From Gymnothorax reevesii (lineage: Eukaryota > Chordata > Actinopteri > Anguilliformes > Muraenidae): a stretch of DNA of 64,000 nucleotides. The position numbers and the translations under genes are program-made. Position 1 is the stretch's first letter, and every line of letters begins with the position of its first letter. The stretch spans positions 74,279,120-74,343,119 of the forward strand of contig CM056583.1 in NCBI GenBank assembly GCA_029721435.1, given 5' to 3'. Below the pieces are notes generated by a model. That model made no database searches and was not told the DNA's origin. It saw only the letters and a list, made by a program, of their open reading frames with translations. This document shows positions 1 through 63,279 of the stretch, piece by piece.

Positions 1-311
1 ATTTATCCGTTTTGGGTCTACCTGTCTCCTCTCCTGTCTGTCCTCCTGCCACTGACCCTTAATATGATGGCAGCATGTTATCTTGAAGGATGTCTCAATT
101 CCTTAAAATGTATTTTGAGGAGAAAGGAGCAAGGAGAGAGGAAGCTTGCAGGAGGAGCCATGAGCAAGGATGCGCAGGTGCATCCTTTGCCAAAATCTTT
201 TTGGCACCCGTGGCGTACAAAAGAAACGTGATACGCTGCTCACAAATTGTGAATTCAATTAAAAGTAAATATAGTATAAACTGTCATAAACACTGACTCG
301 TCTTACAGAGA
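1..311. other. Intergenic, nothing recognised
   Basis: AT-rich to mixed sequence with no convincing coding region, RNA gene or repeat boundary that I can recognise. The only longer reading frame here (90-296, plus strand) resembles no protein I know. Confidence 0.5.
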
Positions 312-1305
312 TCATAAAATACAGTGGTTCACTGTAACAAAAAAAAAACATGATACACCCTTGCCATGGATATTCAATTGACATTGCCAGTGCTGCAGCC
401 TGCATACAGCAAGAGACCAGCCTACCAGGTCATACAATACACAGTGGTGAGTTCGGTAGACAGAGTTTGAAATGTATCTCAAGGCAGCATGGTATAATGA
501 ATCAAGTTTTGTTAGGATAGTGGGGCTAGCAAATCTGTAAATGGTATCACCATAGTCCAGCTGAGACATAAACGGGGCAGTAACCAGTCTTTTACGTGCA
601 ACTGGAGAGAAACATTACTTTAGCCTATAGAGGAAACCCAGTGTAAGCTTGAGTTTCTTACATAGTATGCAAATGTGGTGCTTAAAGTTCAGGTTTTTGT
701 CCTACCAGATCCCCAAATATTAATAGGTGTCAACAAACTGAATACCAACACCTTCCAAGGTGTTGATAGAGAGAGGGGGGACTATAGTATTGCTGGGGGC
801 AAATAACATTGCCTTCGTTGTGTTTGCATTTAAAAACAGTTTTAAGTGAATGAGAGCCTGCTTCAACCAGTCATAATCAGACTGCAACTTGTCAACCGCA
901 GTCATAGGAGAGGGAGCAGAAGCATATAAAACAGTATCATCGAGATACGTGTGGTACATCCAATATTTCAACTGATCAAAAATGTTATTGATGTGCAATA
1001 AAAACAGCAGTGGAGCCAGAATGGATCCTTGAGGGACTCCCCTATCCAAAACAATAGGATCAGAAATAATGTTACCCAAATCTGTCAGTTAAGTAGCTCC
1101 GGAACCAACTGATCACTTTACGACCAATACTAGCTTTTGCAAGGGCTCCAATTAATAAAAAATGATCGACAGTATCAAATGCCTCGGCTAAATCTATAAA
1201 AATAGCAACAACATACTGTGTTTTATCGATGGCACTCTTGATGTCATCGAGGACCTTCAATCCAGCCGTCACGGTACTATGCCTAGCCTGAGAAATGAGA
1301 GGCAA
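312..1305 (-). pseudogene. Broken LINE reverse transcriptase (CR1/L2/Rex-like)
   Basis: The minus strand encodes consecutive pieces of a non-LTR retrotransposon reverse transcriptase. Piece 1305-1072 carries the palm motif FIDLAEAFDTVDH. Piece 1079-720 carries GVPQGSILAPLLF and the catalytic YLDD box (YLDDTVLYA). Piece 569-312 matches the C-terminal thumb-side region, with a LDYGD...LDSLYHAALR stretch. The pieces lie in different frames, and no endonuclease domain is joined to them. The copy is therefore 5'-truncated and frameshifted. The motifs fit the CR1/L2/Rex group of fish LINEs; I cannot fix the exact family. It is not expected to be active. Confidence 0.85.
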
Positions 1306-1879
1306 GAAGTCATTTTCGTGGCAAATATTTCAAATTCTTCCATCCTTTCTTTGCACCTGGCCACGAAATTCACATTAAATGAGTTACGATGCAAGAATTA
1401 GAGATTTCCCGAAAATTTCTTGAGCTAGGGTCTGTGGAGTGTCCCTTGAAGAGTGTTTTCTCAGGACACCAAATTTAAATCTTTCATCTGTGAACCTCTT
1501 GTCAATCGCAAAGCATCAGGCACAACCATAACTGACATTGCTTCAAAGTGACTTTGTAAAGTGCAATGTCCTTTCCCCTTACAAATTCTTATTTCTTTCA
1601 TCCCCATCTCCTCTTCCATTGTTTCCCTGACCGGTGAAGACAAGAACAAGGACAGCAAGGAAGACAGAAGGATGTACAAAGTAAGGGAGTGGAGTGAATC
1701 CTATGATTTGAAGTCCCCATCATTTGCTGTAAACTGCAGCAAGTACAAAGTACAGTAACTCTACCTGGCATTCTGACAATGACAGTAAAAAATATGGGGG
1801 AATGATCAGTTAGAAATGATAACCACGATGATAATAATTTTAAACCAGGTTTTCAGATGCACATTCCCCATACTCCATA
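1306..1879. other. Intergenic, nothing recognised
   Basis: No gene or clear repeat seen. It separates the minus-strand reverse transcriptase remnant from a plus-strand endonuclease remnant, so the two are not halves of one intact LINE. Confidence 0.4.
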
Positions 1880-2391
1880 CTGATGGTTACAACATGTTTT
1901 CCATTCATAGAACCTCAAGGAGAGGTGGTGGTGTGGCTATGTATGTGAAGGACTCAATACTTTGTTGACAGCTTACTGAGTTCCAGGTGCCAGTTGAATT
2001 CGAATGTTTATGGGTGAGGATAAGACTGGCCAGACCTCTATCTGCTGTTGTCCGTTGTGGTGTTTACTCTCCTCAAAATACACCTGATCAAGAACTTTTA
2101 CTCGATCATCTCCAGACTACCATTGATGATATTCTCTCTAAACATCCTGATACTGGCCTTGTTTTGCTTAGAGATTTGAAAAGACTCGATCTGACTCCAC
2201 AGATAAGTGACAGCCTGCTGTCACAGGTGTTGAAAAGCAACAGGAGAGGCAATGCCATTTCAGATATTATTTTGACTAACATCACCAATTACAATATGTG
2301 CCCCTCCATTCTCCCTCCAATAGGATGTAAAAATCATAATTCTGTTGTGTGGACTTCCAAAGCTGCACTGTCTAAAGACAAAGGGCTCTAA
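1880..2391 (+). pseudogene. LINE endonuclease-domain fragment
   Basis: The plus strand encodes part of an exonuclease-endonuclease-phosphatase domain of a non-LTR retrotransposon. An RRGGGVAMYVKDS stretch near 1915-1960 is followed, after a stop, by CGVYSPQNTPDQELL (about 2058-2100). Next comes a degenerate LVLLRDLKRLDL, where an active enzyme has GDFN. An ISDIILTN...PSILPPIG...HNSVVW stretch ends it. The catalytic GD is replaced and an internal stop is present, so the fragment is dead. Orientation is opposite to the reverse transcriptase remnant at 312-1305, which suggests a separate insertion. Confidence 0.75.
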
Positions 2392-2756
2392 TTTCTTGGC
2401 GCAGCCCAGGGTGGCACAGCCCGCGCCGTGGAAATTTCATCCCGTGCACAGCCACTTTGGCAATTTGGTCGACCAACGTGCGCCAACATGGGTGTGGCGG
2501 CGCAGTAGGGGGAGGTGTCACATGCCACGACTGAGAGGGTGGAGGATGCAATGTCCTCCGCCGAGCTCATGGCCATACTGGTGTAGGGGCCGCCTCCGGT
2601 GGCCATTTACCCCTTTTCCACCAAAAAGATCCTGGTGCTGGTGCCGTGCTGGTGCTAGTGCCAGTGCTTAGTTGGTTCAACCCGCGGACCTCCTAAGAAC
2701 CTGTTTGCTTTTCCATCGCCGAGGAGCCAGCTCAGAGCCACCCGATCACATCACTA
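2392..2756. repeat. GC-rich DNA-transposon-like fragment (unclassified)
   Basis: A GC-rich island in AT-rich surroundings. It contains runs of the type ctggtgctggtgcc and a ttttccacc block, which recall the ends of non-autonomous hAT or Harbinger elements of fish. I could not find a matching inverted terminus, so the classification is tentative. Confidence 0.3.
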
Positions 2757-4069
2757 AGTTAAGACCAACAGATCAGGAGAAAATAATCTTTGTTCGAGAC
2801 CTGCGTCTCTCTTAGCAGCACTGACATAACAGCTGGCAATCCAGAAATACAGTATGTACTGAGGGAAACCACAAATAAAAAATTTATAACAAAAATAATG
2901 CTTGCATTTATTGCATGTATTCGCGTCTTTGCATTGACTTTGAATGTAATGTGTCGTGCGAAAAATTTGTTTCGCATCCAGTGTGAAAGCAGCTTAATAC
3001 TATTATTGCCACTTCGGTTTAATCGTTTTTAGTGGGGGAAAGGAATACAGCCTGATTGCTATGATCTTGTACTGAGATAAGATCACATATTGAAAATAAA
3101 TGTGTAACGTATCTTGCATTGTTGTCCATGCATGTTAATCCCAAAATTTTAAGCAGCAACAGGGTGTAATAATAGGAATATCTTATCCATCGTTTCTCTT
3201 CCCAATGATGCAGGCAGAAGAAATAAATGAGCAACCGTAGTATTTCATTCCAACTTCATAAGTTTGAATGATCTGAAGTAGTTTCGTTTTGAAATTCCAT
3301 TCAAGTTATAATCATTCGCAAATGCCCAAGCTAGCCAGCTAACTCATATTCATAATGTTTAATATAGACATAAGCGGTGCAGAAAACATGCCTGAAGCAG
3401 CAAAGTAAAATGCAACATTATTGCATCATGCAGAAATAGGACAGAGGCTTCTTTATTCCAACATTTTAAAGGTGAGGAGAGGAGCTCATTTGATTGGTGA
3501 AGATTTGACTCGGCTGTGTTAAACCCACTTACGCCTTCTCTCCTCCCTCTTTGCCACTTGTGCCAGCAGGAGGGACAGAGGAGTACTTGCGCCTGGCACA
3601 AAATTGCAAAATACACCTGGATACACCCCGTTGGTGCAGCACTTCCCCCATTTGCCGCACCTGTGCCTGCTCAACGAATTTAGAGCCCAAAGTGTGGAAG
3701 AAACTAATCAGACCCCTCAGTGAAAGTGATATGTTTGCCTTTGGTAAATAAGCCACTTCACATTCTTGGGGTGAGGTATATGAAGCCAAGGATGCAATCG
3801 CCAAGGCTGATGACTTCTACCAAACACTTACCGGCGCATTGGATGTGATTTTTCCTATGAAAGTAAAGAGAATCCACTCAACTGACAAACCTTAGAAACT
3901 CCGATATCTCTAAACATTATCAGATGTGGCCAGTTTTCATTTATAACACATAAAAATTACAACTCCGGACTTCTCGCGCTTTTCTTTATTCAGGGATTGG
4001 AAGCAGTGCAAGTGTTTCACGATTCTTTAAATGAAATAAGATCATTTGAAACGCTTTAGGCAATTCTAT
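2757..4069. other. Intergenic, no gene seen
   Basis: Reading frames in this stretch are short and unlike any protein I know. No RNA gene or terminal repeat was found. Confidence 0.4.
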
Positions 4070-9107: not shown

Positions 9108-9113
9108 GATGTT
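9108..9113. other. Left 6-bp target-site duplication GATGTT
   Basis: GATGTT directly precedes the left end of the palindromic element. It is repeated exactly at 24647-24652 after the right end. Six-base duplications are the known signature of Polinton/Maverick integration by a retroviral-type integrase. Confidence 0.9.
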
Positions 9114-9127
9114 AGAGAGATAATATG

Positions 9128-11590
9128 ATACGGTTTCTGTCAAAATTTAATTGATTTTGATTGATGGCTTTTTGATGAGTTGATGATGTAATATTAATTT
9201 TTTAATTAGGTTATAATAGTTTATTATTTATCACCCCCTGGCTGTGTGGGGTAATTCAGCACAGCCACCCTCCCTCCTTTTTGGGATAACATTTTAAGCA
9301 TCTTGTAAAACATTTATTTAATAGCATAATTATTTAGTGATTATTAAACATGTATTATTTAAGTGGTGGGGGAAATGGATGTGATAAGTGGTAAAACTTT
9401 ATTTCAAGCGTTTGTTGGTTGTGGGGAAAATGGAAGAGGGTTAAAATTCGTAGTGTTTTAAAGTTGCGGGTAATGTGTTAGTAAAATAGTGTTTTAAAGC
9501 GAAATAAAAAATAAAAAATAAAAATAAATAAGTTAGTTGTCGAAAGTTCGATGCGAAATAAGGCTGATTTCCAAAGTCTTCTCACCCCGTTGGTCATCTC
9601 ACACTCTGGCCGCGTGTATGTGAGGTGCGTGGGGTATGTCAAAGGGGGCGGGGGCTGGTTCTGTGGGTGTGCGTACTTGTGTAGGCGGGAATACGGTCAA
9701 CCAATGGCTGAGCCATACGGTTTCTGTCAAAATTTAATTGATTTTGATTGATGGCTTTTTGATGAGTTGATGATGTAATATGAGTTAATTTTTAATTAGG
9801 TTATAATAGTTAATTATTTATCAACCCTTTGCCCCCTCTCATCCCTCCCTCCCCTCCCCTGGCTGTGTGGGGTAATTCAGCACAGCCACCCTCCCTCCCT
9901 CCCTCCCTCCTTCCTTCCTTTTTGGGGATAACTCTTTTAAAACATTTATTTAATTGCATTATTGTTTAGTGCTTTTTGAACATATATTATTTCAGTGGTG
10001 GGGAAATGGAAGTAATAAGTGGTAAAACTTTATTTCAAGCGTTTGTTGGTTGTGGGAAAACGAAAGAGGGTTAGAATTCGTAGTGTTTTAAAGTTGCGGG
10101 TAATATGTTAGTAAAATAGTGTTTTAAAGCAAAATAAAAATAAATAAAAATAAAAGTTAGTAAAACTGGCTTTTTGATGAGTTGATGATGTCATATGAGT
10201 TCATTTTTAATGAGGTTATTATAGTTTATTCAGTATCACCCCTTTGCCCCCTCCACCTCCCCACCCTCTCCTCCCCTGGCTGTGTGGTGTAATTCAGCAC
10301 ACCCTCCCTCCTTTTAGGGATAACTCTTTTAAAACATTTATTTGATTGCATTATTGTTTAGTGCTTTTTAAACATATATTATTTCAGTGGTGGGGGAAAT
10401 GGATGTGACAAGTGGTAAAACTTTATTTCAAGCGTTTGTTGGTGTGGGTGTTACCAGATGCAGGATCCAGAAGTTTTTATTGAATGCAACATGAGGGAAA
10501 ACTCAGGAAACCAAAACAACACAACAAAGTCCGTCTGAAGGTCTCTTCAGTCTTCCCTTCTTAAGGACACATTGGGAGGATGCAGGAATGCAGAAGGCAA
10601 TCTACTGTGGAAACAGAAATGCATGGATTAAGGAACAAATTCACAAGGACCGGGTAACAATACTGTCTCGAGGCAAGACGCTAAGACGACCAATTAAACT
10701 AGACAGTTTAGATTGAGGTAATAATATATACACCCTTAAATAAGAGCTGGTTGGTACGGTTAGTAATGAACCTATCAGGGGATGCATTCACTCAGAGTTA
10801 TGCGAGACCCAGAATTAAGCACAGGTAGAAGCAATGAATGAAATACCAAACCGAAAGAGGAAACATGCTTGGACAACGAGACTCAGGCATGTAGAATACT
10901 GTCACACGACACCACAGGGGTCAGGGCAAGAGGTAATCAATGGTCAGACCGCGGGAATGGAGCGGAAACACAAATCAAGAAACACACGGTGTAAAATGCA
11001 CAAGCACAAACAAGCACACGAGACAGAATCATAACAGTCGTGGGAAAATGAAAGAGGGTTAAAATTCGAAGTGTTTTAAAGTTGTGGGTAATATGGTAGT
11101 AAAATGGTGTTTTAAAGCAAAATAAAAAAAAATAAATGAAACTAAATAAAAATATAAAAATAAAAGTTAGTAAAATAGTGTTAAAGCAAAAATTGTTAGT
11201 AAAAGTGTTTTAAAGTTAAAAAAAGAAATTAAAATAGTGTTTTTAAAGTGTTAAAACTGGAGAGTAATGAATGAAGTACATTTGAAATAGCTGTGAATAT
11301 GTGGAAAGAATAAAGAAAGGAAAGAAAGATAAAACTACTCACCAGTAAAGTCTGGCCCCGAGATGTAAATGGAGGGAAAAAACGTTTTTCTGAGTTAGTT
11401 GTCGAGAGCTTGATGCAAAATAAGGCTGGTTTCCAAAGTGTTCTCATCTTGCAAGTCATCTCTCACTGACAGTGTGCATGTTGAGTGAGTGGGGTATGTC
11501 AAAGGCGGGCGCAGCTGGTTCTGTGGGTGTGTGCGTACATGTGTTGGCAGGAATATGGTCAACCAATGGCTGAGCCATACAGTTTCTGTC
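9128..11590 (+). repeat. Subterminal direct repeats inside the left arm
   Basis: The terminal motif atacggtttctgtcaaaa occurs at 9128, 9715 and, with one change, about 11577. The ggctttttgatgagttgatg block occurs at 9166, 9753 and 10168. The first period is 587 bp and the second 415 bp; the latter lacks the block that encodes the PMAEPY-type frame. Each unit repeats a gctgtgtggggtaattcagc block and gtgttttaaagttg blocks. A mirror copy lies at about 22170-24632. Short frames here (9551-9751, 11485-11676) are similar to each other only because the DNA is repeated. Confidence 0.75.
10449..11036 (-). mobile_element. Solo LTR in the left arm
   Basis: A 588-bp insertion interrupts a subterminal repeat unit; the other copies of the unit lack it. 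Read on the minus strand it begins TGTTATG and ends GGTAACA (TG...CA). It has a TATA-like tatatatta stretch and an AATAAA signal near its 3' end, as an LTR would. GTGGG lies on both sides (10444-10448 and 11040-11044), with three extra bases at one edge. No internal retrotransposon sequence remains. It is present in both arms, so it predates the arm duplication. Confidence 0.65.
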
Positions 11591-11591
11591 A

Positions 11592-12419
11592 AAAAATCAC
11601 AACGGTAAAATTAAACTTACCCAGAAAACAGAAAATTGGGTCAACGACTTCTGACCAAAAGCTTATGGGCATGTGAGCGACATGGGGATGAGTGCAGCTA
11701 AGGGATATCAGAGGCCTCAAGGACTTTTCAGCCCTGCAGGGAAGTTGTGTAAATACGGTTCAGATAAGGCGCAAAGAAACAAATGTGTTTCATCAAAGAG
11801 TAACATACCTTTGGCATTTACAATTTTAATCTGTCTTTTGTCTGTACTATTCTTTTAAAGAACAGATTGATTAATTTAAGCAATAATGTATTCCACTCCT
11901 GCCAACTGTTCCAAAAGCTGTTAAAACATCTTATTATTTCATAGCACTATTATGTGTACACCTCAAGGAGAAATGATGAGGGAACTGGAAAGGATTCAGA
12001 ATGACACCATAAAACATATACTGGGACCACCAAAATCTATTTAATGAAGGATTCTTAACAGGCCATGTAAAACATATTCTGTATTTTGTATTTTACAATG
12101 TTTAATGTTTAATAAGTTATATATATTTTATTTGTAATGTATTGGATCCAGTCTTGAATCAGTCTTGAAGTAATAAATAAATTCCGACATACTCTATTTT
12201 TAACAGACCATGTAAAATATTTTCTGTATTTTGTATTTGATAAAGTTTGGTGCTTTATCACTTATAAATATTTTATTTGCATCTAGTCTTGGAAATTAGT
12301 AATAAATAAATAACTTAATTCCCGATATACTCGATTATAAATAGCCCATTTTCATAAAATTCAATACTTCATCAGTTTGTTTTTAAAGCAGTGGAAATAT
12401 ATTGGCTATTCTTTCTTTC
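11592..12419. other. Non-coding stretch of the left arm
   Basis: AT-rich DNA with repeated taataaataaat and tgtaaaa-tattttctgtattttgtattt blocks (about 12062 and 12206). No gene recognised. Frames such as 11673-11858 resemble nothing I know. Confidence 0.45.
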
Positions 12420-13252
12420 AGTATGAATAAAGGCATAGGGTCTTTTAGATTAAATTATGTTATACCATTTTTAAAGTTTTTTAACTTTAAGAAATGATAA
12501 AATTGTGTATGGAAAGCTGGAAAATGCGAGTTTTAAAGTATATCCTAGAATTTTATGTTGAATATAGGTTTTAACTAAAGTTTTTACAATTGAGCTGGAG
12601 TGCTTGCAGGTCGTGTGTGTGTGTGTGTGTGTGTGTGTCTGTGTCTGTGTGTGAGTGTGGGCAAGTGCGGAAGGTGTGGCTTGAGTGCACCAACTTAATT
12701 AAGGATTTTTAACAGGCTGTGTAAAATATTTTATTTATTATTATTTATTTGAAATATATTGCATCCAGTCTTGGAAATGAGTAACAATAAATAAATACCG
12801 ATATACTCGATTATCGATGAACCATTTTCATAAATGTCAATACAGCTTTAGTTTAAGTCTTTGTTTCTAAAATGCGAGTTTCAAAGTATATCCTGGAATT
12901 TTTATGTTGAATATAGGTTTTAACTAAGTTTCTCATTTGAGAGGGAGGGCTTGCGGGTCGTGTGATTGTGTGTGCGCGTGCTTGCGTGCGTGTGTGTATC
13001 AGTTTGTTAAATTCTATGCAAGTTCTTCCTTTTTAAAAAACAGTTTTTTTTTTTTCAGTATGAATAAACAATCAGGGCCTTTTAGATCAATGTTTGAACC
13101 ATCATGTATCATATTAAAGTCTTTTAACTTGTTAAGAAATGATAAAATCGTGTGTAGAAAGCTGGAAAATGCGAGTTTCAAAGTAGAATTTTATGTTGAA
13201 TATAGGTTTTAACTAAGTTTTTCATTTGAGCGGGAGTGCATGTTGGTCGTGC

Positions 13253-13290
<38 letters not shown>

Positions 13291-14619
13291 GTTAGTTTGT
13301 TAAATTATATGCAAGATTTTTGTTTTTAAAAAGCAGTCCAAAAGTCGAAATATACCAATTTTTTTTTTTCCTTCAGTATCAATAGGGGAGACCGTGAATG
13401 ATAGAAACACTTTTTTGCTTGAGCACGTGTAACGCAGTGGTTCCTTGTGATAGAGATCTCAAATTTTTACATGCGGTTATCCATATTTGTCTGCTATAAA
13501 TGATACACTTGGACTTCTGCTACACTATCACAGACTATGTGAATGAATGTCAAATATAAAGAGGTATGTTGTTTAAACCTACCCCCACAGCACCGGGGTG
13601 AGTTGTAACACTACGTGAGGATGGATGTAACAATTAAATTCATAGCCTTAAAAAAGATTAAAACCATTAAATGTATGGAAGCACTTTAATGAATAATAAA
13701 GAAGGGATCATAAACTTGTAAGACTACAAAATAAATATAATAAAATAAATAAAAAGTGTAAGTTAAATACGATAAAAATAAATACAATAAAATAAATAAA
13801 TATACATTACATGAAGAAATATAAAGTATAAATATGGGTGTGTTGTGTGTGTGTGTGTGTGTGTGTTCTGTAGCCTGAAACAGCTTGATGTGAAAAAGCA
13901 CTTGAACACTTGGAGGTCTGTGGAACAATCAAACTACTTTTGAACAGTGTAGTGCAAAGCTGCACTAAGTACTTAATAAGTACTGAAAGGCATTTGAACA
14001 GTTCAACTGTCTATTGAACAATAAACAAACCACTCTTAAACGCTGTTTTCAAGGTGCAGAAGTACTTAGTAAGTAACTATTAACTAAGCATGCTAGGCAT
14101 GCCGTAAAAAGGGGACCAGTACAAAATGTCAACATAAGGGGAAGATTGTAACACTTTTTAAGAACAGTTACAACCCTTCCCATGCTAGGCCACCATTAAA
14201 AAGCTAACAGTTTTTAGCATTTAGCTTCAAAGCTAGCACTAATGCAACAGGTCAAATGAAACCAGAGAAACAATTATTTGAGCTTATATACGTGAAACAA
14301 CTGTATCTACAACACAATAGACACTATACAATAATATTTGTGATGAAAATTTTTACTTGCTTACCTGAAAAATTGTTTTTGGCACCAGAACAGACAGTTT
14401 TCAACTCAGAGACATGAGGCTTCACCAGTGAGCTCACTTTGTAAGTGGGCATGGACTGTATTGATGACATCACTGCAGAGTTTTTCTAACTTTAAGAAAT
14501 GATAAAATTGTGTGTAGAAAGCGGGAAAATGTGAGTTTCAAAGTATATCCTAGAGTTTTATGTTGACTGTAGGTTTTAATTAAGTTTTTCATTTGAGCGG
14601 GAGGGCTTGCGAGTCGTAT

Positions 14620-14656
<37 letters not shown>
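12420..14656 (+). repeat. Array of GT-ending repeats in the left arm
   Basis: A unit containing taagaaatgataaaat, ggaaaatg, gagttt-aaagtatatcc and ttttatgttga-tataggtttt, then a gcttgc-ggtcgtgtg lead into a (GT)n tract. It occurs four times, with tracts at about 12613-12660, 12955-12998, 13250-13292 and 14620-14656. About 1.1 kb of unrelated DNA (13385-14478) splits the third and fourth copies. The mirror array is at about 18600-20830. Confidence 0.75.
13385..14478. mobile_element. Unclassified insertion inside the GT-repeat array
   Basis: Sequence that interrupts the repeat unit between a cagtatcaa block and the taactttaagaaatg block. It begins taggggagaccgtgaatg. It includes an internal GT microsatellite (13846-13866) and several gttacaa/gtaacac blocks. 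There is no open frame of interest and I could not find inverted ends. It is shared by the other arm, so it is older than the palindrome. Confidence 0.4.
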
Positions 14657-14657
<1 letters not shown>

Positions 14658-15062
14658 CCCCCATTCTGAGTTTCAGCAACAGAAATAGCAGACATGCCTG
14701 GCAAAGGACCTCGTGTTGGCGCTGGTGTTTAACACTGAACAACATGGAATTGAGTGGAAGATGTCCGAAAAGGAGTAGGCAAGACTACTTCGACAAGAAA
14801 AATGGCAATCGACAACGGAGAGAGAGCTATGAGAAGGACTCGATCGACTGCTGAACAAAGTACACGGGGTGGAAGACAGTGATCATCGGATAACTTTTCT
14901 TGTGGGAACAGTTCTGTCTGACTTAAGGCGTGGTTAGAGTCCACTGACATAAATATCAAGGCAGGAGTGTGTCTTGAGTGACATTGTTGGTGTGCCTTAA
15001 TTCCAACCTGTCTCAATTTTGTCAGCTTTCTTAATTACCTCAGTGCAGAAACGTCTTTTACT

Positions 15063-16190
15063 ATGGACGCCATATCTAGTAGTTCGACAGAGTTTAGAGT
15101 ATTGGAAGTTGGGCATATGACAGCATCAGAAAAATTGAATTCCTGGGCTGAAAATGTGGTTGACAGGTGTGAATCAGCCCACAGATTTTTTGGACTCTTG
15201 TACCCAAATAAGGTGAGAGCCATGCAAGTCATATTGACTGATGCTGTGAGAAGCGAATGTACTGCTGAGGCCTTCTTATCGGCCCTCAGGGATGAAGATC
15301 CTTTCCTTTTCAACGACCTGGAAACAAACGGCCCTAGAAAAACATTTGGTGAGTATCAACATTGATGGCCTCGACTTCCGTTCTCACTAAATAATTCCAC
15401 GTTGACTTACTGGTCATTTTCCTCTTTGTACGTCTATCCTGTTACCTGGTCTGTTCTTGTCATAACAGTGAGGAGTCGTCCACCGACTGAGCCGTTTGAC
15501 TTATGGAGCGCAAACCGAGGCCTGCGCAACTTCTTCGAAACACGAAGAGACGAATTCAACGTCGTGGATATACTTGTGGAATGCAACCCTTTGACTGTGG
15601 AAGAGTACGATAACATACGGCTTGCTAGAGAGAGGCCGCTGTTTCGCGCACTGCACGAAATTATGACACGGGCATCTCCGGAACATGTCGCATTTCTGGA
15701 ATGCCTGGAGGGACTGTATCGAGATGTGTGGCCGTCACCAAACACGGAGGTTGTTTCACAGGACGACACACACCAACAGAGAATCAAGAAGACTTTCAAT
15801 GGGCAGGGGAATTATGACATCATACATGTGAACAGTGCCATGACACCTGTGGCCACAGTAGAGGACGTGTGGTGGTGCCCAATTTGTACAATTCACAGAG
15901 CGGAACACGCTTTTGGGTGTGGGCATGTAACCTGTGCAACTTGCGATAGAAAGACTGGAAACAAATGCCCCTTGTGTCGGCGGCATAAGGAAGAGGTGTA
16001 CAAGGAAGCTTTCGCTGTGAAAAATGCTCACCTGCAATGTCCCGAATGTAAGGGTCCTAAAATGGTGCTTATTTACGACGGACCCAACGGGGAGGGCTGT
16101 CATCATGTTGCATGTGAGTGCGCCGTTAAAAACCATAGGTGTGCTTGTGGGCATACAGCAACTATGTTCATGACTATCTACAAGATGTGA
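15063..16190 (+). CDS. CARD-like plus RING zinc-finger protein, left-arm copy (two exons)
   Basis: Exon 1 is 15063-15348 (donor TTG|GTGAGT). Exon 2 is 15469-16190 (acceptor CATAACAG). The phases agree and give 335 residues. Residues about 1-95 are helical and unrecognised. Residues about 105-185 resemble a CARD/death-fold domain (NVVDILVECNPLTVEEYDNI). A C3HC4 RING follows (CPIC, FGCGHVTCATC, CPLC), then a second Cys/His cluster (CPEC, CHHVACEC, CACGH). RING proteins of this type are usually ubiquitin ligases, and CARD-RING pairs recall inhibitor-of-apoptosis proteins without BIR repeats. A role in blocking host death or inflammatory signalling is inference. AATAAA is at 16289. Confidence 0.8.
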
Positions 16191-16288
16191 AGAGGTAGTT
16201 TTTGCCCTTGGGGGCAATTATGTACCAAAACCTGTGTGAAACTTTGCTATTAAGATGTCTGTTTTGTTTTTTGTTTATTTGTTTTTAC

Positions 16289-16294
16289 AATAAA
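16289..16294 (+). promoter_or_regulatory. Polyadenylation signal of the left CARD-RING gene
   Basis: AATAAA about 100 bases after the stop codon. The mirror copy, read on the minus strand, is at 16950-16955. Confidence 0.65.
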
Positions 16295-16440
16295 ACAACC
16301 AGTGTATGATCAATTGACACTGCCAACAGCCACACAGCAAATTGTGTGCAATGAAAGAGGCTTCATGCTCACAAACTGCCAAGTTTCTAAAAAATTTAGA
16401 GTTGTGTTCAACAAGAGTTCCGCAGCCAGATTTCAAGACT

Positions 16441-16780
16441 TTACCATGTGGCTTTTAAAACTGTGTTTGGCGATGAGAGAGCCGTCTCATCGTGTAAAAT
16501 ATTGAGGGCAATTTCACAAATAGTTTTTATCAGCTCTGGGCTGGTAGATTGAAAAATTTCAGTGCTATTACTGGCCGCTTCCATGAGATCATCAATAATA
16601 ACCAAATGGGTTTTATGCAAAGGAAGCAGTGCTTCATCAGTCAATGATTCAGGCAGACCTTCAACAAAATGTAAATTCTTTATTTTATGGCGCAAATCAT
16701 CACATATAGGTTGCCAGCATGAATAAAAGCATACAATACTCTGTGCCACAAATGACAGGACATAGGGAGCATTTTCAAAG
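16441..16780 (-). pseudogene. Polinton packaging-ATPase fragment in the palindrome centre
   Basis: On the minus strand from 16780 to about 16560 the frame reads like the middle of the FtsK/HerA-type packaging ATPase of Polintons and adintoviruses. It has VCFYSCWQPICDDLRHK, then HFVEGLPES, then the Walker B-like HLVIIDDLMEAASNSTEI. The Walker A half is missing and would lie beyond the arm boundary. After STEI the frame continues as PELIKTICEIALNIL, which does not fit the ATPase. It resembles the start of a small basic core-like (pX-type) Polinton protein. The fragment thus looks like two truncated viral genes joined, and cannot be functional. Confidence 0.75.
16464..16780. other. Non-palindromic centre of the element
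   Basis: The only part of the element without a partner in the opposite arm. It is bordered by ttttaaaactg on the left and cagttttaaaa on the right. A small hairpin (cgatgaga / tctcatcg) lies just inside its left edge. It would form the loop of the giant hairpin in single-stranded DNA or RNA. Confidence 0.85.
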
Positions 16781-17053
16781 CAGTTTTAAAAGCCACATGG
16801 TAAAGTCTTGAAATCTGGCTGCGGAACTCTTGTTGAACACAACTCTAAATTTTTTAGAAACTTGGCAGTTTGTGAGCATGAAGCCTCTTTCATTGCACAC
16901 AATTTGCTGTGTGGCTGTTGGCAGTGTCAATTGATCATACACTGGTTGTTTTATTGTAAAAACAAATAAACAAAAAACAAAACAGACATCTTAATAGCAA
17001 AGTTTCACACAGGTTTTGGTACATAATTGCCCCCAAGGGCGAAAACTACCTCT

Positions 17054-18181
17054 TCACATCTTGTAGATAGTCATGAACATAGTTGCTGTATGCCCACAAG
17101 CACACCTATGGTTTTTAACGGCGCACTCACATGCAACATGATGACAGCCCTCCCCGTTGGGTCCGTCGTAAATAAGCACCATTTTAGGACCCTTACATTC
17201 GGGACATTGCAGGTGAGCATTTTTCACAGCGAAAGCTTCCTTGTACACCTCTTCCTTATGCCGCCGACACAAGGGGCATTTGTTTCCAGTCTTTCTATCG
17301 CAAGTTGCACAGGTTACATGCCCACACCCAAAAGCGTGTTCCGCTCTGTGAATTGTACAAATTGGGCACCACCACACGTCCTCTACTGTGGCCTCAGGTG
17401 TCATGGCACTGTTCACATGTATGATGTCATAATTCCCCTGCCCATTGAAAGTCTTCTTGATTCTCTGTTGGTGTGTGTCGTCCTGTGAAACAACCTCCGT
17501 GTTTGGTGACGGCCACACATCTCGATACAGTCCCTCCAGGCATTCCAGAAATGCGACATGTTCCGGAGATGCCCGTGTCATAATTTCGTGCAGTGCGCGA
17601 AACAGCGGCCTCTCTCTAGCAAGCCGTATGTTATCGTACTCTTCCACAGTCAAAGGGTTGCATTCCACAAGTATATCCACGACGTTGAATTCGTCTCTTC
17701 GTGTTTCGAAGAAGTTGCGCAGGCCTCGGTTTGCGCTCCATAAGTCAAACGGCTCAGTCGGTGGACGACTCCTCACTGTTATGACAAGAACAGACCAGGT
17801 AACAGGATAGACGTACAAAGAGGAAAATGACCAGTAAGTCAACGTGGAATTATTTAGTGAGAACGGAAGTCGAGGCCATCAATGTTGATACTCACCAAAT
17901 GTTTTTCTAGGGCCGTTTGTTTCCAGGTCGTTGAAAAGGAAAGGATCTTCATCCCTGAGGGCCGATAAGAAGGCCTCAGCAGTACATTCGCTTCTCACAG
18001 CATCAGTCAATATGACTTGCATGGCTCTCACCTTATTTGGGTACAAGAGTCCAAAAAATCTGTGGGCTGATTCACACCTGTCAACCACATTTTCAGCCCA
18101 GGAATTCAATTTTTCTGATGCTGTCATATGCCCAACTTCCAATACTCTAAACTCTGTCGAACTACTAGATATGGCGTCCAT
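17054..18181 (-). CDS. CARD-like plus RING zinc-finger protein, right-arm copy (two exons)
   Basis: Mirror copy of the left-arm gene: exon 1 is 18181-17896 and exon 2 is 17775-17054 on the minus strand. Splice sites, phases and the 335-residue length are the same. The only protein difference I noticed is Val to Glu in the MTP-ATVEDV segment just before the RING. All RING and second-cluster Cys/His residues are kept. The two copies are transcribed toward each other and their 3' ends lie about 860 bp apart. Read-through transcripts would therefore be complementary over the whole gene. Confidence 0.8.
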
Positions 18182-18586
18182 AGTAAAAGACGTTTCTGCA
18201 CTGAGGTAATTAAGAAAGCTGACAAAATTGAGACAGGTTGGAATTAAGGCACACCAACAATGTCACTCAAGACACACTCCTGCCTTGATATTTATGTCAG
18301 TGGACTCTAACCACGCCTTAAGTCAGACAGAACTGTTCCCACAAGAAAAGTTATCCGATGATCACTGTCTTCCACCCCGTGTACTTTGTTCAGCAGTCGA
18401 TCGAGTCCTTCTCATAGCACTCTCTCCGTTGTCGATTGCCATTTTTCTTGTCGAAGTAGTCTTGCCTACTCCTTTTCGGACATCTTCCACTCAATTCCAT
18501 GTTGTTCAGTGTTAAACACCAGCGCCAACACGAGGTCCTTTGCCAGGCATGTCTGCTATTTCTGTTGCTGAAACTCAGAATGGGGG

Positions 18587-18599
<13 letters not shown>

Positions 18600-18626
<27 letters not shown>

Positions 18627-20830
18627 GACTCGCAAGCCCTCCCGCTCAAATGAAAAACTTAATTAAAACCTACAGTCAACATAAAACTCTAGGATATACT
18701 TTGAAACTCACATTTTCCAGCTTTCTACACACAATTTTATCATTTCTTAAAGTTAAAAAAACTCTGCAGTGATGTCATCAATACAGTCCATGCCCACTTA
18801 CAAAGTGAGCTCACTGGTGAAGCCTCATGTCTCTGAGTTGAAAACTGTCTGTTCTGGTGCCAAAAACAATTTTTCAGGTAAGCAAGTAAAAATTTTCATC
18901 ACAAATATTTTTGTATAGTGTCTATTGTGTTGTAGATGCAATTGTTTCACGTATATAAGCTCAAATAATTGTTTCTCTAGTTTCATTTGACCTGTTGCAT
19001 TAGTGCTAGCTTTGAAGCTAAATGCTAAAAACTGTTAGCTTTTTAATGGTGGCCTAGCATGGGGAGGGTTGTAACTGTTCTTAAAAAGTGTTACAATCTT
19101 CCCCTTATGTTGACATTTTGTACTGGTCCCCTTTTTACGGCATGCCTAGCATGCTTAGTTAATAGTTACTTACTAAGTACTTCTGCACCTTGAAAACAGC
19201 GTTTAAGAGTGGTTTGTTTATTGTTCAATAGACAGTTGAACTGTTCAAATGCCTTTCAGTACTTATTAAGTACTTAGTGCAGCTTTGCACTACACTGTTC
19301 AAAAGTAGTTTGATTGTTCCACAGACCTCCAAGTGTTCAAGTGCTTTTTCACATCAAGCTGTTTCAGGCTACAGAACACACACACACACACACACACACA
19401 CAACACACCCATATTTATACTTTATATTTCTTCATGTAATGTATATTTATTTATTTTATTGTATTTATTTTTATCGTATTTAACTTACACTTTTTATTTA
19501 TTTTATTATATTTATTTTGTAGTCTTACAAGTTTATGATCCCTTCTTTATTATTCATTAAAGTGCTTCCATACATTTAATGGTTTTAATCTTTTTTAAGG
19601 CTATGAATTTAATTGTTACATCCATCCTCACGTAGTGTTACAACTCACCCCGGTGCTGTGGGGGTAGGTTTAAACAACATACCTCTTTATATTTGACATT
19701 AATTCACATAGTCTGTGATAGTGTAGCAGAAGTCCAAGTGTATCATTTATAGCAGACAAATATGGATAACCGCATGTAAAAATTTGAGATCTCTATCACA
19801 AGGAACCACTGCGTTACACGTGCTCAAGCAAAAAAGTGTTTCTATCATTCACGGTCTCCCCTATTGATACTGAAGGAAAAAAAAAATTGGTATATTTCGA
19901 CTTTTGGACTGCTTTTTAAAAACAAAAATCTTGCATATAATTTAACAAACTAACACACGCACACACACACACACACACACACACGCGCGCGCACGACCAA
20001 CATGCACTCCCTCTCAAATGAAAAACTTAGTTAAAACCTATATTCAACATAAAATTCTACTTTGAAACTCGCATTTTCCAGCTTTCTACACACGATTTTA
20101 TCATTTCTTAACAAGTTAAAAGACTTTAATATGATACATGATGGTTCAAACATTGATCTAAAAGGCCCTGATTGTTTATTCATACTCAAAAAAAAAACTG
20201 TTTTTTAAAAAGGAAGAACTTGCATAGAATTTAACAAACTGATACACACACGCACGCAAGCACGCGCACACACAATCACACGACCCGCAAGCCCTCCCTC
20301 TCAAATGAGAAACTTAGTTAAAACCTATATTCAACATAAAAATTCCAGGATATACTTTGAAACTCGCATTTTAGAAACAAAGACTTAAACTAAAGCTGTA
20401 TTGACATTTATGAAAATGGTTCATCGATAATCGAGTATATCGGTATTTATTTATTGTTACTCATTTCCAAGACTGGATGCAATATATTTCAAATAAATAA
20501 TAATAAATAAAATATTTTACACAGCCTGTTAAAAATCCTTAATTAAGTTGGTGCACTCAAGCCACACCTTCCGCACTTGCCCACACTCACACACAGACAC
20601 AGACACACACACACACACACACACACACGACCTGCAAGCACTCCAGCTCAATTGTAAAAACTTTAGTTAAAACCTATATTCAACATAAAATTCTAGGATA
20701 TACTTTAAAACTCGCATTTTCCAGCTTTCCATACACAATTTTATCATTTCTTAAAGTTAAAAAACTTTAAAAATGGTATAACATAATTTAATCTAAAAGA
20801 CCCTATGCCTTTAGTCATACTGAAAGAAAG
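18600..20830 (-). repeat. Mirror array of GT-ending repeats in the right arm
   Basis: Same four units as in the left arm, read as CA tracts on the plus strand (18590-18622, 19376-19400, 19955-19985, 20600-20628 and neighbours). Thr-His frames through them are artefacts. Confidence 0.7.
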
Positions 20831-22205
20831 AATAGCCAATATATTTCCACTGCTTTAAAAACAAACTGATGAAGTATTGAATTTTATGAAAATGGGCTAT
20901 TTATAATCGAGTATATCGGGAATTAAGTTATTTATTTATTACTAATTTCCAAGACTAGATGCAAATAAAATATTTATAAGTGATAAAGCACCAAACTTTA
21001 TCAAATACAAAATACAGAAAATATTTTACATGGTCTGTTAAAAATAGAGTATGTCGGAATTTATTTATTACTTCAAGACTGATTCAAGACTGGATCCAAT
21101 ACATTACAAATAAAATATATATAACTTATTAAACATTAAACATTGTAAAATACAAAATACAGAATATGTTTTACATGGCCTGTTAAGAATCCTTCATTAA
21201 ATAGATTTTGGTGGTCCCAGTATATGTTTTATGGTGTCATTCTGAATCCTTTCCAGTTCCCTCATCATTTCTCCTTGAGGTGTACACATAATAGTGCTAT
21301 GAAATAATAAGATGTTTTAACAGCTTTTGGAACAGTTGGCAGGAGTGGAATACATTATTGCTTAAATTAATCAATCTGTTCTTTAAAAGAATAGTACAGA
21401 CAAAAGACAGATTAAAATTGAAAATGCCAAAGGTATGTTACTCTTTGATGAAACACATTTGTTTCTTTGCGCCTTATCTGAACCGTATTTACACAACTTC
21501 CCTGCAGGGCTGAAAAGTCCTTGAGGCCTCTGATATCCCTTAGCTGCACTCATCCCCATGTCGCTCACATGCCCATAAGCTTTTGGTCAGAAGTCGTTGA
21601 CCCAATTTTCTGTTTTCTGGGTAAGTTTAATTTTACCGTTGTGATTTTTTGACAGAAACTGTATGGCTCAGCCATTGGTTGACCATATTCCTGCCAACAC
21701 ATGTACGCACACACCCACAGAACCAGCTGCGCCCGCCTTTGACATACCCCACTCACTCAACATGCACACTGTCAGTGAGAGATGACTTGCAAGATGAGAA
21801 CACTTTGGAAACCAGCCTTATTTTGCATCAAGCTCTCGACAACTAACTCAGAAAAACGTTTTTTCCCTCCATTTACATCTCGGGGCCAGACTTTACTGGT
21901 GAGTAGTTTTATCTTTCTTTCCTTTCTTTATTCTTTCCACATAGTCACAGCTATTTCAAATGTACTTCATTCATTACTCTCCAGTTTTAACACTTTAAAA
22001 ACACTATTTTAATTTCTTTTTTTAACTTTAAAACACTTTTACTAACAATTTTTGCTTTAACACTATTTTACTAACTTTTATTTTTATATTTTTATTTAGT
22101 TTCATTTATTTTTTTTTTATTTTGCTTTAAAACACCATTTTACTACCATATTACCCACAACTTTAAAACACTTCGAATTTTAACCCTCTTTCATTTTCCC
22201 ACGAC

Positions 22206-22792
22206 TGTTATGATTCTGTCTCGTGTGCTTGTTTGTGCTTGTGCATTTTACACCGTGTGTTTCTTGATTTGTGTTTCCGCTCCATTCCCGCGGTCTGACC
22301 ATTGATTACCTCTTGCCCTGACCCCTGTGGTGTCGTGTGACAGTATTCTACATGCCTGAGTCTCGTTGTCCAAGCATGTTTCCTCTTTCGGTTTGGTATT
22401 TCATTCATTGCTTCTAGCTGTCTTAATTCTGGGTCTCGCATAACTCTGAGTGAATGCATCCCCTGATAGGTTCATTACTAACCGTACCAACCAGCTCTTA
22501 TTTAAGGGTGTATATATTATTACCTCAATCTAAACTGTCTAGTTTAATTGGTCGTCTTAGCGTCTTGCCTCGAGACAGTATTGTTACCCGGTCCTTGTGA
22601 ATTTGTTCCTTAATCCATGCATTTCTGTTTCCACAGTAGATTGCCTTCTGCATTCCTGCATCCTCCCAATGTGTCCTTAAGAAGGGAAGACTGAAGAGAC
22701 CTTCAGACGGACTTTGTTGTGTTGTTTTGGTTTCCTGAGTTTTCCCTCATGTTGCATTCAGTAAAAACTTCTGGATCCTGCATCTGGTAACA
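22206..22792 (+). mobile_element. Solo LTR in the right arm
   Basis: Mirror copy of the left-arm solo LTR, here reading TGTTATG...GGTAACA on the plus strand. A TATA-like stretch is near 22512. The polyadenylation hexamer has become AGTAAA near the 3' end. CCCAC occurs on both sides. The frame 22208-22459 inside it is not a real gene. Confidence 0.65.
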
Positions 22793-23463
22793 CCCACACC
22801 AACAAACGCTTGAAATAAAGTTTTACCACTTGTCACATCCATTTCCCCCACCACTGAAATAATATATGTTTAAAAAGCACTAAACAATAATGCAATCAAA
22901 TAAATGTTTTAAAAGAGTTATCCCTAAAAGGAGGGAGGGTGTGCTGAATTACACCACACAGCCAGGGGAGGAGAGGGTGGGGAGGTGGAGGGGGCAAAGG
23001 GGTGATACTGAATAAACTATAATAACCTCATTAAAAATGAACTCATATGACATCATCAACTCATCAAAAAGCCAGTTTTACTAACTTTTATTTTTATTTA
23101 TTTTTATTTTGCTTTAAAACACTATTTTACTAACATATTACCCGCAACTTTAAAACACTACGAATTCTAACCCTCTTTCGTTTTCCCACAACCAACAAAC
23201 GCTTGAAATAAAGTTTTACCACTTATTACTTCCATTTCCCCACCACTGAAATAATATATGTTCAAAAAGCACTAAACAATAATGCAATTAAATAAATGTT
23301 TTAAAAGAGTTATCCCCAAAAAGGAAGGAAGGAGGGAGGGAGGGAGGGAGGGTGGCTGTGCTGAATTACCCCACACAGCCAGGGGAGGGGAGGGAGGGAT
23401 GAGAGGGGGCAAAGGGTTGATAAATAATAAACTATTATAACCTAATTAAAAATTAACTCATAT

Positions 23464-23947
23464 GGGCTGCCGGGTGGCTCACACGGTTAAGGCACTGCGC
23501 TGCAGTGCAGAGGTGATCACCCCGTCGCGGGTTCGATCCTCGGCGTACCCACCGGCAGGGGTCGGCAGCTTTTTCATAGTAGCGCACAATTGGCTATCGC
23601 GCTACAGGGTTACAAATTGGGAAGGGACTGCCGGATTTGGGCAATAGATAACAGCTTTGTTCGTTGCTCCAGCGCCTCCTGTTGGCCAGACGGGCGCTCG
23701 TCAGGAAGAATCCGGCTTGGTTCATGTCCGGGTATCCTCCGCCCTCGCTCTGAACTTGCGAAGATTCAACCAGCGAGTGTACAAGAATCAGTGGCTGACA
23801 GGCACGTGCTTCGGAGGAGAGCCGTGAACTGTCTTCACTATCCTGAGTTGGCAGCAAGGGGTCGCATACGAGCAAGCTTTGTACATAGTTCCCCAATTGG
23901 GCATTCCAAATTCGGGTGGGATTGGAGATGCCAAATTTTTTTAAAAG

Positions 23948-23978
<31 letters not shown>
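23464..23978 (+). mobile_element. tRNA-derived SINE, right arm only
   Basis: Starts gggctgccgggtggctcac, with an A-box-like tggctcacacggttaagg and a B box ggttcgatcc (about 23530). A roughly 350-bp body and a long A tail (to 23978) follow. The direct repeat TTAACTCATAT flanks it (ends at 23463 and at 23989). The matching site in the left arm (about 9780) is empty, so the SINE landed after the two arms existed. I cannot assign the family. Confidence 0.85.
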
Positions 23979-23980
<2 letters not shown>

Positions 23981-24646
23981 AACTCATATTACATCATCAA
24001 CTCATCAAAAAGCCATCAATCAAAATCAATTAAATTTTGACAGAAACCGTATGGCTCAGCCATTGGTTGACCGTATTCCCGCCTACACAAGTACGCACAC
24101 CCACAGAACCAGCCCCCGCCCCCTTTGACATACCCCACGCACCTCACATACACGCGGCCAGAGTGTGAGATGACCAACGGGGTGAGAAGACTTTGGAAAT
24201 CAGCCTTATTTCGCATCGAACTTTCGACAACTAACTTATTTATTTTTATTTTTTATTTCGCTTTAAAACACTATTTTACTAACACATTACCCGCAACTTT
24301 AAAACACTACGAATTTTAACCCTCTTCCATTTTCCCCACAACCAACAAACGCTTGAAATAAAGTTTTACCACTTATCACATCCATTTCCCCCACCACTTA
24401 AATAATACATGTTTAATAATCACTAAATAATTATGCTATTAAATAAATGTTTTACAAGATGCTTAAAATGTTATCCCAAAAAGGAGGGAGGGTGGCTGTG
24501 CTGAATTACCCCACACAGCCAGGGGGTGATAAATAATAAACTATTATAACCTAATTAAAAAATTAATATTACATCATCAACTCATCAAAAAGCCATCAAT
24601 CAAAATCAATTAAATTTTGACAGAAACCGTATCATATTATCTCTCT

Positions 24647-24652
24647 GATGTT
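24647..24652. other. Right 6-bp target-site duplication GATGTT
   Basis: Exact copy of 9108-9113, directly after the right terminus. Confidence 0.9.
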
Positions 24653-30736: not shown

Positions 30737-32525
30737 GTAAGATTTGAACAATTATTTACTTTTTTTCCTAATGTTGTTTGTTTAATTCATTTCTGATATG
30801 TTTTCTGTTTTAGTCTGACATTCAGGCCTCTTAATTTTATAAATGCATAATTTATCACGCACGCTATCCACCTCATGTAGTTTGATGTCCTTGTTCCACC
30901 CTGAAGGCTACAGCCTGTCACATCATTGAGTTAAGCATTGAAAGTAATCTGTGTTGTTTGATACGGAGCCCCTGAACTTCTGTGATTTATTCGGTTCAGT
31001 CCATTGGTTTCTCTAACTAGATATTACTCTACTGCAGTCCGCAACATCATCCAATAGATCTTCCTAATAATTTTGTTGTAACTTTTTGGCTTCTTGCTGC
31101 TATACAATTGACGTTAAGGTCGTGGGGAAACTGGTTTATTATTATTATTATTATAACATCCATGGAAGGCACGCGCAAGTTTTTTTTTTTTTTTTGTTCC
31201 GGTTATCCGGGGTTCTGCCCGTCTGGAGAGGCACTGACGTCAGTTTCGCACTGGCACCGGCTATTTCTGATTCGGGCGAATATTGATGTGGAATACCGAC
31301 AGCTATATCGTTGATTCAACCACAGATCAAGCCGGGAAGCAGCGACAGGAATATTTCGTTAAATTCTCTGCGGGCTTCGTTCATATATGAGCAAAATTGC
31401 CTCCGTATCAGCAAGTGTTTTTGGTAGGATTATTTTTTATTTGTAAAATGATTCTTTTAGTCGTTTCCATGCATCCAGTGCCGCATTCGATGTGAAATGT
31501 TGGCTATTCACTGTTGCATGTTCGTATCAATTTGCAGTTTCCTCACCGCATCCAATGTGTCTTAATTTTTCAACACAATCTGTCGGCTATGTGTTTCACT
31601 CTTAAAATAAGGGTGATCTTTCGAGTAAATACAACGTAAGCTGGTGCATTTTTCCTACTGCTATTATGGAGGCTGTTTTCGAAGGGAATCCACCTTCCGC
31701 TTAGCAACGTAAAAGGCAAATTCAATTTCACATTTTGTATATTATGAATTACCTGAAATGGCCAATTACCATTTTTTAGCATCGGACAGCCAGTCAGTTA
31801 TGCCACCACCACCAAAACTGTCTTATCTTCTCAATTAATGCTTGGAACGTCTGGATTGCGTGTTGCTATGGAGAATAGCTACAAACCATTTTAAAATGCT
31901 TGTTATGTTGTGCACGACTGCTGACAGGAGTTTTGATTGTGGTATTCAATTAATTTCCCTTGAAGCCGTACACGTAACTTTTTACTTAAGCTTACATGCA
32001 GTAAATTGAGTGGGTCAGCCAGTGAAGCTTTGTAAGGTAGGCTACATGTTCAAAGGGATTCCATATACGATTGATACAATCAGCATGATGATATTCCCTG
32101 AGGGTAATGCGGCTCCATATGGATAAACGCGGTCTACATAGCAAATCTGAATAGCAGGATTTGATTCCAGAGCCTTCGCTTCAGTGATGTATAGGGAGGC
32201 TGCATGTTGTTCCATCCAAACCCATTTGTCGTTGTGGTTGTGTTTTTTTTTCTCTCTGCACCATCAATTTGGTCAATTTTAAGCCACCCACTTTTTTCTT
32301 TGTGGAAAGATGGTCCAGTTCCGATTCTTAAACCGAAAAAAACCGCATTCCGTTTTCAGGGATATGCAAATTATGTAACGTCTTTCCAGGTGAAACTTAA
32401 GTCGAGTTTAAAGGGGACTAGACCCTCTTTCCCAGACGGGTACGAACGATCTACATGATTTTCATGATTTAATTTTACAGCAAGCTCGGGTGGTCCCTGA
32501 AGTACACTGTCTGTCCATCAAAGCC

Positions 32526-51563: not shown

Positions 51564-63279
<11,716 letters not shown>

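Follow-up and report, generated by a model that had tools for sequence, protein, structure and literature searches.

Palindromic, non-autonomous Maverick derivatives form a family in the genome of the moray eel Gymnothorax reevesii

The stretch of DNA analyzed here (64,000 nucleotides, positions 74,279,120 to 74,343,119 of contig CM056583.1 in the Gymnothorax reevesii assembly GCA_029721435.1; hereafter, the window) contains a mobile element that consists almost entirely of two long arms in inverted orientation. This element is a derivative of a Maverick (Polinton) and is not autonomous, and it belongs to a multicopy family of palindromes, with at least two subfamilies, in this one eel genome. 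The palindromes integrate as whole units, as seen in 15 independent palindromic insertions that are each flanked by a perfect 6-bp duplication. Our preferred account, to which we assign a probability of about 0.85, is that the element derives from a vertebrate Maverick, is palindromic and non-autonomous, originated by fold-back, is mobilized in trans, and is one member of this family. Fold-back replication is most likely the origin of the arms, being the best account, although not the sole one.

The palindromic element and its genes

The element and its principal parts are located in the window as follows.

9114-24646: whole element, 15,533 bp, flanked on both sides by GATGTT
9108..9113: target-site duplication on the left, GATGTT (6 bp), read directly
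24647..24652: target-site duplication on the right, GATGTT (6 bp), read directly
9114..16463, + strand: left arm, 7,350 bp, with (AG)3 at its start
16464..16780: center between the arms, 317 bp
16781..24646, - strand: right arm, 7,866 bp including an insertion, with (CT)3 at its end
23464..23978, + strand: insertion resembling a short interspersed nuclear element (SINE), with a poly(A) tail, present in the right arm only and bearing its own 11-bp duplication

An earlier note, made from the letters of this DNA, placed the element correctly, although its span of 9108..24652 included both duplications, which lie outside the element proper. The perfect GATGTT duplications and the identical ends starting with AG, both described in that note, can be read directly; each end, read inward, is 5'-AGAGAGATAATATGATACGG, and the outer letters of the element are AGAGAG ... 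CTCTCT. Alignment likewise reproduces the two arms of 7.35 kb around a center of 317 bp and supplies their identity, which is 99.73% (20 mismatches in 7,335 aligned positions and eight small indels, with the SINE set aside and six duplication columns, comprising four mismatches and two matches, excluded). A match of ~7.35 kb between the arms is not a product of chance. The similarity stops at the ends of the element, and the sole strong match between the flanks is a 133-bp direct repeat elsewhere. The differences between the arms are clustered, with 7 of the 20 found within 350 bp (14178-14523; P 0.004 for that single window size), and internal repeats make up 2,910 of the 7,350 bases of the left arm.

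The greater length of the right arm is due to the SINE insertion, which spans 526 alignment columns. Its duplication, TTAACTCATAT, is found at 23453-23463 and 23979-23989, and the empty site is present in the left arm. The insertion contains GGTTCGATCC, read directly, which we take to be a B-box-like motif; the only match to Rfam in this region is a single one at chance level (E 4.5, far under the gathering score). The SINE is outside the family structure of the palindromes, and without it the element measures ~15.0 kb.

Two features of vertebrate Mavericks are present in the element, namely the 6-bp duplication and the (AG)3//(CT)3 ends, the latter being one of the two end motifs, together with (AGT)2//(ACT)2, given in PMC8097293. 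Two others are missing, since the inverted repeats are 7,350 bp long rather than 46-1,447 bp, and the set of core genes (pPolB, integrase, ATPase, protease, and capsid proteins) is reduced to a fragment of the ATPase. No polymerase, integrase, or capsid genes were found in a six-frame Pfam scan of the left arm and center, where the ATPase fragment is all that remains, in agreement with the proposal that nearly all core genes had been replaced. The assignment to the Polintons, also proposed in the earlier note, is upheld by the end motif, the 6-bp duplication, the ATPase remnant, and the tips that the element has in common with elements carrying pPolB. Each arm comprises, in order, the terminal repeat, a repeat-rich stretch of ~5.3 kb, and a CARD-RING gene, and stops where the ATPase gene starts; the coding parts are listed below.

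16555..16776, - strand: fragment of a Maverick packaging ATPase, 222 bp, which aligns with residues 36-109 of P0003 (55% identity, E 1e-21)
16464..16487, + strand: 24 bp of the ATPase gene start, adjoining the arm; a near-identical stretch follows both arms of copy L019
15063..15348, + strand: exon 1 of the CARD-RING gene, left arm, spliced as in Gymnothorax P0001
15469..16190, + strand: exon 2 of the CARD-RING gene, left arm, preceded by a 120-bp intron (15349-15468)
17896..18181, - strand: exon 1 of the CARD-RING gene, right arm
17054..17775, - strand: exon 2 of the CARD-RING gene, right arm, differing from the left copy by one amino acid

The ATPase P0003, with 227 residues, was matched at E 2e-16 in a database search, and the half of the protein that carries the P-loop is absent from the window fragment. 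P0003 itself is just over the cut-off for the adenovirus IVa2 family and weakly similar to poxvirus A32, while P0004 and P0005 are under the cut-off; these matches fit a virus packaging ATPase. The inner part of the arm was considered as the location of the P-loop half and rejected, with a local test score of 27 that was matched by 31% of 500 random windows; the true place of the ATPase start is revealed by copies L015 and L019. A further piece of ~60-90 bp lies beside the ATPase fragment in the center.

The closest protein to the CARD-RING product is P0001 of a moray eel (88% over 83% of the second-exon query). Toward its C-terminus, P0001 is radial spoke head protein 9, and its record is therefore probably a fused gene model built around an inserted copy. 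The CARD (PF00619) is over the cut-off in a second moray relative, P0002, and weak in the window itself (E 0.17), whereas all RING matches are under the cut-off; the domains are called from Pfam only, because the predicted structure of P0001 is poor (mean predicted local distance difference test score, pLDDT, 29.6). In the aligned part of the CARD-RING gene, 29 of 32 family arms contain no stop; of these 29, one has an insertion of a single base, and one lacks 204 bases. The ratio of nonsynonymous to synonymous differences (pN/pS) of this frame is 0.48-0.79 against five arms of the second subfamily and 1.11 against C16, and it is undefined against C3, with zero synonymous changes, so that purifying selection is only suggested.

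Copies, insertions, and centers in the host genome

Further copies with the same ends and duplications, which the earlier note had proposed to look for, are abundant in the host genome (G000; 2.17 Gb in 421 contigs). Exact matches to the 20-bp tip number 72 (33 forward and 39 reverse), compared to 0 for the control. Head-to-head pairs of tips less than 40 kb apart number 29, of which 19 are palindromic, six surround a match to PF03175 (pPolB), one is truncated (C20), and three are shorter pairs; palindromes thus outnumber the pairs bearing pPolB by ~3:1 (19 vs. 6). The palindromic pairs are the one in the window, 16 others (L053-L057 and L059-L069), C10:32.07M (L020), and C13:55.36M. With C13:55.36M set aside, 16 of the 18 palindromic pairs are 13.9-15.1 kb long, which falls within the 12.7-24.6 kb reported for intact vertebrate Mavericks in PMC8097293, where a constrained genome size is proposed. 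The three shorter pairs, C12:79010915-79017326 (6.4 kb), C19:27923091-27930147 (7.1 kb), and C11:11914703-11925505 (10.8 kb), may be further deletion forms. The truncated 4.5-kb copy, C20:45794352-45798830, consists of arm positions 1-3818 joined to arm positions 1-632 and lies inside the arm of another copy.

Perfect 6-bp duplications are found at all 17 palindromic loci checked, including the window. Ten of these loci were evaluated by a script (five true, three false, and two unread), and the latter five were read from the letters, the script having been misled by one additional AG or CT at the element's end. Such extra units are present at one or both ends of 8 of the 15 independent insertions, some copies having (AG)4, which is consistent with the jumping-back proposed for Maverick ends in PMC8097293. 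Comparison of the flanks, which distinguishes segmental duplication from transposition, identifies two segmental duplicates, with C4:77.28M sharing flanks with C4:77.22M and C12:82.3M with C12:79.89M, and leaves 15 different sets of flanks, hence 15 independent insertions, each with its perfect duplication. The palindrome therefore moves as a unit. The earlier note had reached the same conclusion from the intact duplications of the window element; the conclusion holds, but a single locus is not sufficient for it, since a rearrangement in place would also keep the duplications intact.

Among 18 further mid-regions fetched from the host assembly, 17 are arranged head-to-head, and part of one arm is absent in those of C10, C16, C7, C1, and C4:75.98M. 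A query with the inner arm found head-to-head pairs separated by a gap of 317 bp at four further loci (40 of 142 candidates scored), and the 317-bp center of the window is also present in C12:40.2M, C4:75.98M, C6:88.39M, and C3:69.58M, at 99.4-100%. The window junction is found, together with a different secondary break, in L021, L022, L023, L026, L028, L029, and L032. In L019, both arms enter a near-identical ATPase start for ~24 bp and then diverge, one side continuing through ATPase residues 11-122 and the other into the piece that lies beside the ATPase fragment in the window. A fold-back junction would look like this. In the window, one side is without the 24 bp and the ATPase start, and the arms end at AAAACTG.

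Three copies were considered as full-length parents and rejected. The middle of C13:55.36M, a candidate for a parent with 7-kb repeats, holds a reverse-transcriptase element, and this locus is thus a palindromic copy with an insertion. The insertion (C13:55369993-55382406, ~12.4 kb), located within the center of the palindrome, has matches to reverse transcriptase and RNase H, as well as similar inverted sequence at its two ends, and is presumably DIRS-like. In L024 and L031, the extra DNA holds matches to reverse transcriptase, endonuclease, hAT, and SCAN; L024 is a head-to-head copy with deletions, and both were kept out of the palindrome count. No relatives were found in IMG/VR with the RING protein, the center frame, scans of the ATPase alignment, or an exact search for the tip.

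Origin of the arms and competing explanations

The 20-bp tips of the palindromes are identical to those of the six host elements that bear pPolB, five of which are 17.98-18.61 kb long and one 30.65 kb. At the left end of one of them (C10:31797380-31815571, 1 kb fetched), the match to the window arm stops at position 619. At its right end, 401 bp located ~0.5-0.9 kb from the tip continue as arm sequence, and the 99 bp common to the left and right ends, with which the shared part finishes, are identical. Further inward on the right, beyond the polymerase, the sequence corresponds to arm positions 3121-3505; the polymerase-side end is arm-like. The inverted repeat of this element would thus be ~620 bp long, inside the published range for vertebrate Mavericks, with the qualifications that only the tip was read in the outermost 0.5 kb of the right end and that the break might be simulated by inserted DNA in the left end. 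Because the ends of this relative match over ~620 bp only, the 7.35-kb arms seem to have arisen by duplicating one end in inverted orientation, far beyond a repeat of the parental type. The six elements differ from the palindromes in carrying a pPolB match and, in the one compared, in this ~620-bp repeat.

When replication is protein-primed and proceeds by strand displacement, it releases single strands whose 5' end is capped by a protein, and it would permit events of the following kind. A displaced or stalled nascent strand might fold back near the ATPase gene and be copied to its own terminus, and the next round would then produce a linear palindrome with an end competent for replication and integration at each terminus. 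The pPolB and integrase of relatives with the same tips could replicate and integrate such a palindrome in trans, a role that we infer from the tips that they share with it. Copying of a hairpin, or conversion, would equalize the arms at or after integration, and the center could later be trimmed differently in each lineage, unless some lineages arose separately. Either a longer first palindrome that was variously trimmed or more than one event would explain the differing centers.

Comparison of the arms is in part consistent with this scheme. Segments of 1.6 kb from both arms were compared in 14 elements (C10, C7, C1, and C16, with one usable arm each, were left out); within each element the arms are 99.63-99.94% identical and always belong to the same subfamily, whereas the subfamilies are ~5% apart (about 95% identity). 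In L021, L022, L026, L028, L029, and L032, the arms are 98.6-99.6% identical to each other and 96.2-97.6% identical to the window. The arms of one element are thus usually much closer than the lineages are, with exceptions; they seem to be alike in young copies and to drift later, and copies within a subfamily seem to be recent. Between lineages with a common junction, one of the arms must derive from its partner by copying or conversion.

Several observations weigh against the fold-back account, or at least against its simplest form. The comparison of ends covers one of the six pPolB elements, and partial stretches of it. The order of terminal repeat, CARD-RING, ATPase, and polymerase core occurs in no element found, and the parental junction was not seen; the search for a full-length parent, another proposal of the earlier note, yielded the six pPolB elements with the same tips but none with this gene order. 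The arm of another element is closer than the element's own second arm in 8 of 14 cases (four of them segmental duplicates) and tied in one; best matches to another element have a median of 99.91%, which is above the within-element median of 99.84%, and own arms are sisters in only 8 of 14. The arms of L020 (96.4% identical to each other vs. 95.9% to the window) and L019 (94.2%, over 241 bp only) are not homogenized, and gene conversion after integration would equally yield like arms. No trace of the window center or of the ATPase is present in nine mid-regions of the second subfamily (L061-L069) or in the center-less L059 and L060, and a single origin of all palindromes is therefore not established. 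Finally, L025 and L027 are asymmetric, with the ATPase in both orientations and arms of unequal length.

If the parent Maverick already possessed ~7-kb inverted repeats that included the CARD-RING gene, the palindromes would be plain internal deletions. Their centers do vary between copies as deletion products would, and the side of L027 that is without the CARD-RING region keeps the arm from position 5543 outward. Such an origin is nevertheless unlikely in view of the repeat range given for vertebrate Mavericks in PMC8097293 and of the ends compared in one of the six pPolB pairs. In that one pair, the refuting case of the earlier note, taken as a parent whose normal inverted repeats already are the arms, did not appear. 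Formation of the palindromes in place, by break-induced copying from one terminal repeat after integration and with no movement afterwards, is compatible with intact duplications at a single locus; however, five loci that differ in their flanks and duplications have the same 317-bp center, which refutes it for the copies that share this center, and the palindromic state of 15 independent loci makes it very improbable as a whole.

An artefact of assembly was also foreseen in the earlier note as a reason to abandon the palindrome, and palindromes are indeed difficult to assemble, with fold-back reads or misjoined copies as potential sources of error. It is hardly credible here, considering that the flanks differ, that the SINE is one-sided and has its own duplication, that the arms contain 20 mismatches, and that 17 of the 18 further mid-regions are head-to-head, with perfect duplications in all 16 of these that were checked. 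Transposons of the Foldback or Galileo type, unrelated to Mavericks, resemble the palindromes in their very long, internally repetitive inverted repeats, as described in PMC3573991 and PMC3688188. They belong to another transposase class and are without the Maverick ends, the ATPase, and the tips shared with pPolB elements, all of which are found here together with 6-bp duplications, while the Pfam scan of the left arm and center revealed no P-type transposase or remnants of one; this identification can practically be dismissed.

Extending the fold-back account, we can speculate that the palindromes are comparable to defective interfering genomes that an endogenous DNA virus produces through fold-back in protein-primed replication, with doubled replication and integration ends and a size held near 14-15 kb without the SINE, possibly packaged in helper capsids, re-integrating, and able to rebuild one arm from the other in each cycle. 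This extension is tentative, and we consider it somewhat less probable than its negation. If it were true, two CARD-RING copies would be delivered, with possible effects on cell death or immunity in the host.

Related systems and neighboring sequences

In earlier descriptions, Mavericks are virus-like transposons whose terminal repeats are short and whose copies are for the most part degraded fossils. The window element resembles the vertebrate Mavericks of PMC8097293 in its ends, perfect 6-bp duplications, size range, and ATPase gene, as well as in the presence of an accessory gene beside the terminal region. It differs from them in the length of its repeats, in having no detected polymerase and only a fragment of the ATPase, and in moving as a palindrome; in addition, its cargo gene has an intron, whereas the genes of intact elements are reported there as intronless. 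A derivative of the kalilo plasmid of Neurospora (Vierula and Bertrand 1992, known from its title as cited in PMC11071308) similarly arose by deletion from a linear element with protein-primed replication and forms hairpin and duplex DNA, although it is a mitochondrial plasmid, while the palindromes form a chromosomally integrating family with target duplications. Literature searches on palindromic or non-autonomous Polintons returned no such family in titles or the opening lines of abstracts. Palindromes are also known for adenovirus and yeast linear plasmids, which the literature searched did not bring up.

The family presents a defective, fully palindromic form of Maverick as a successful mobile lineage. 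It preserves, in a natural setting, traces of what may be fold-back errors during protein-primed replication, offers a test of Maverick replication and integration in trans, and provides a case of arm homogenization in mobile palindromes, whose arms have spread paired copies of the CARD-RING gene through a vertebrate genome.

Outside the element, the window contains host exons of DNAJB5 (region 32490-35497), one of which has an identity of 92% with Anguilla rostrata and 91% with Conger, and host exons of an AAA ATPase (59159-62981) that we take to be VCP-like. Two pairs of dispersed direct repeats of ~180-226 bp, 92-93% identical, are located at 53245-53468 / 61223-61448 and 58691-58869 / 61771-61950.

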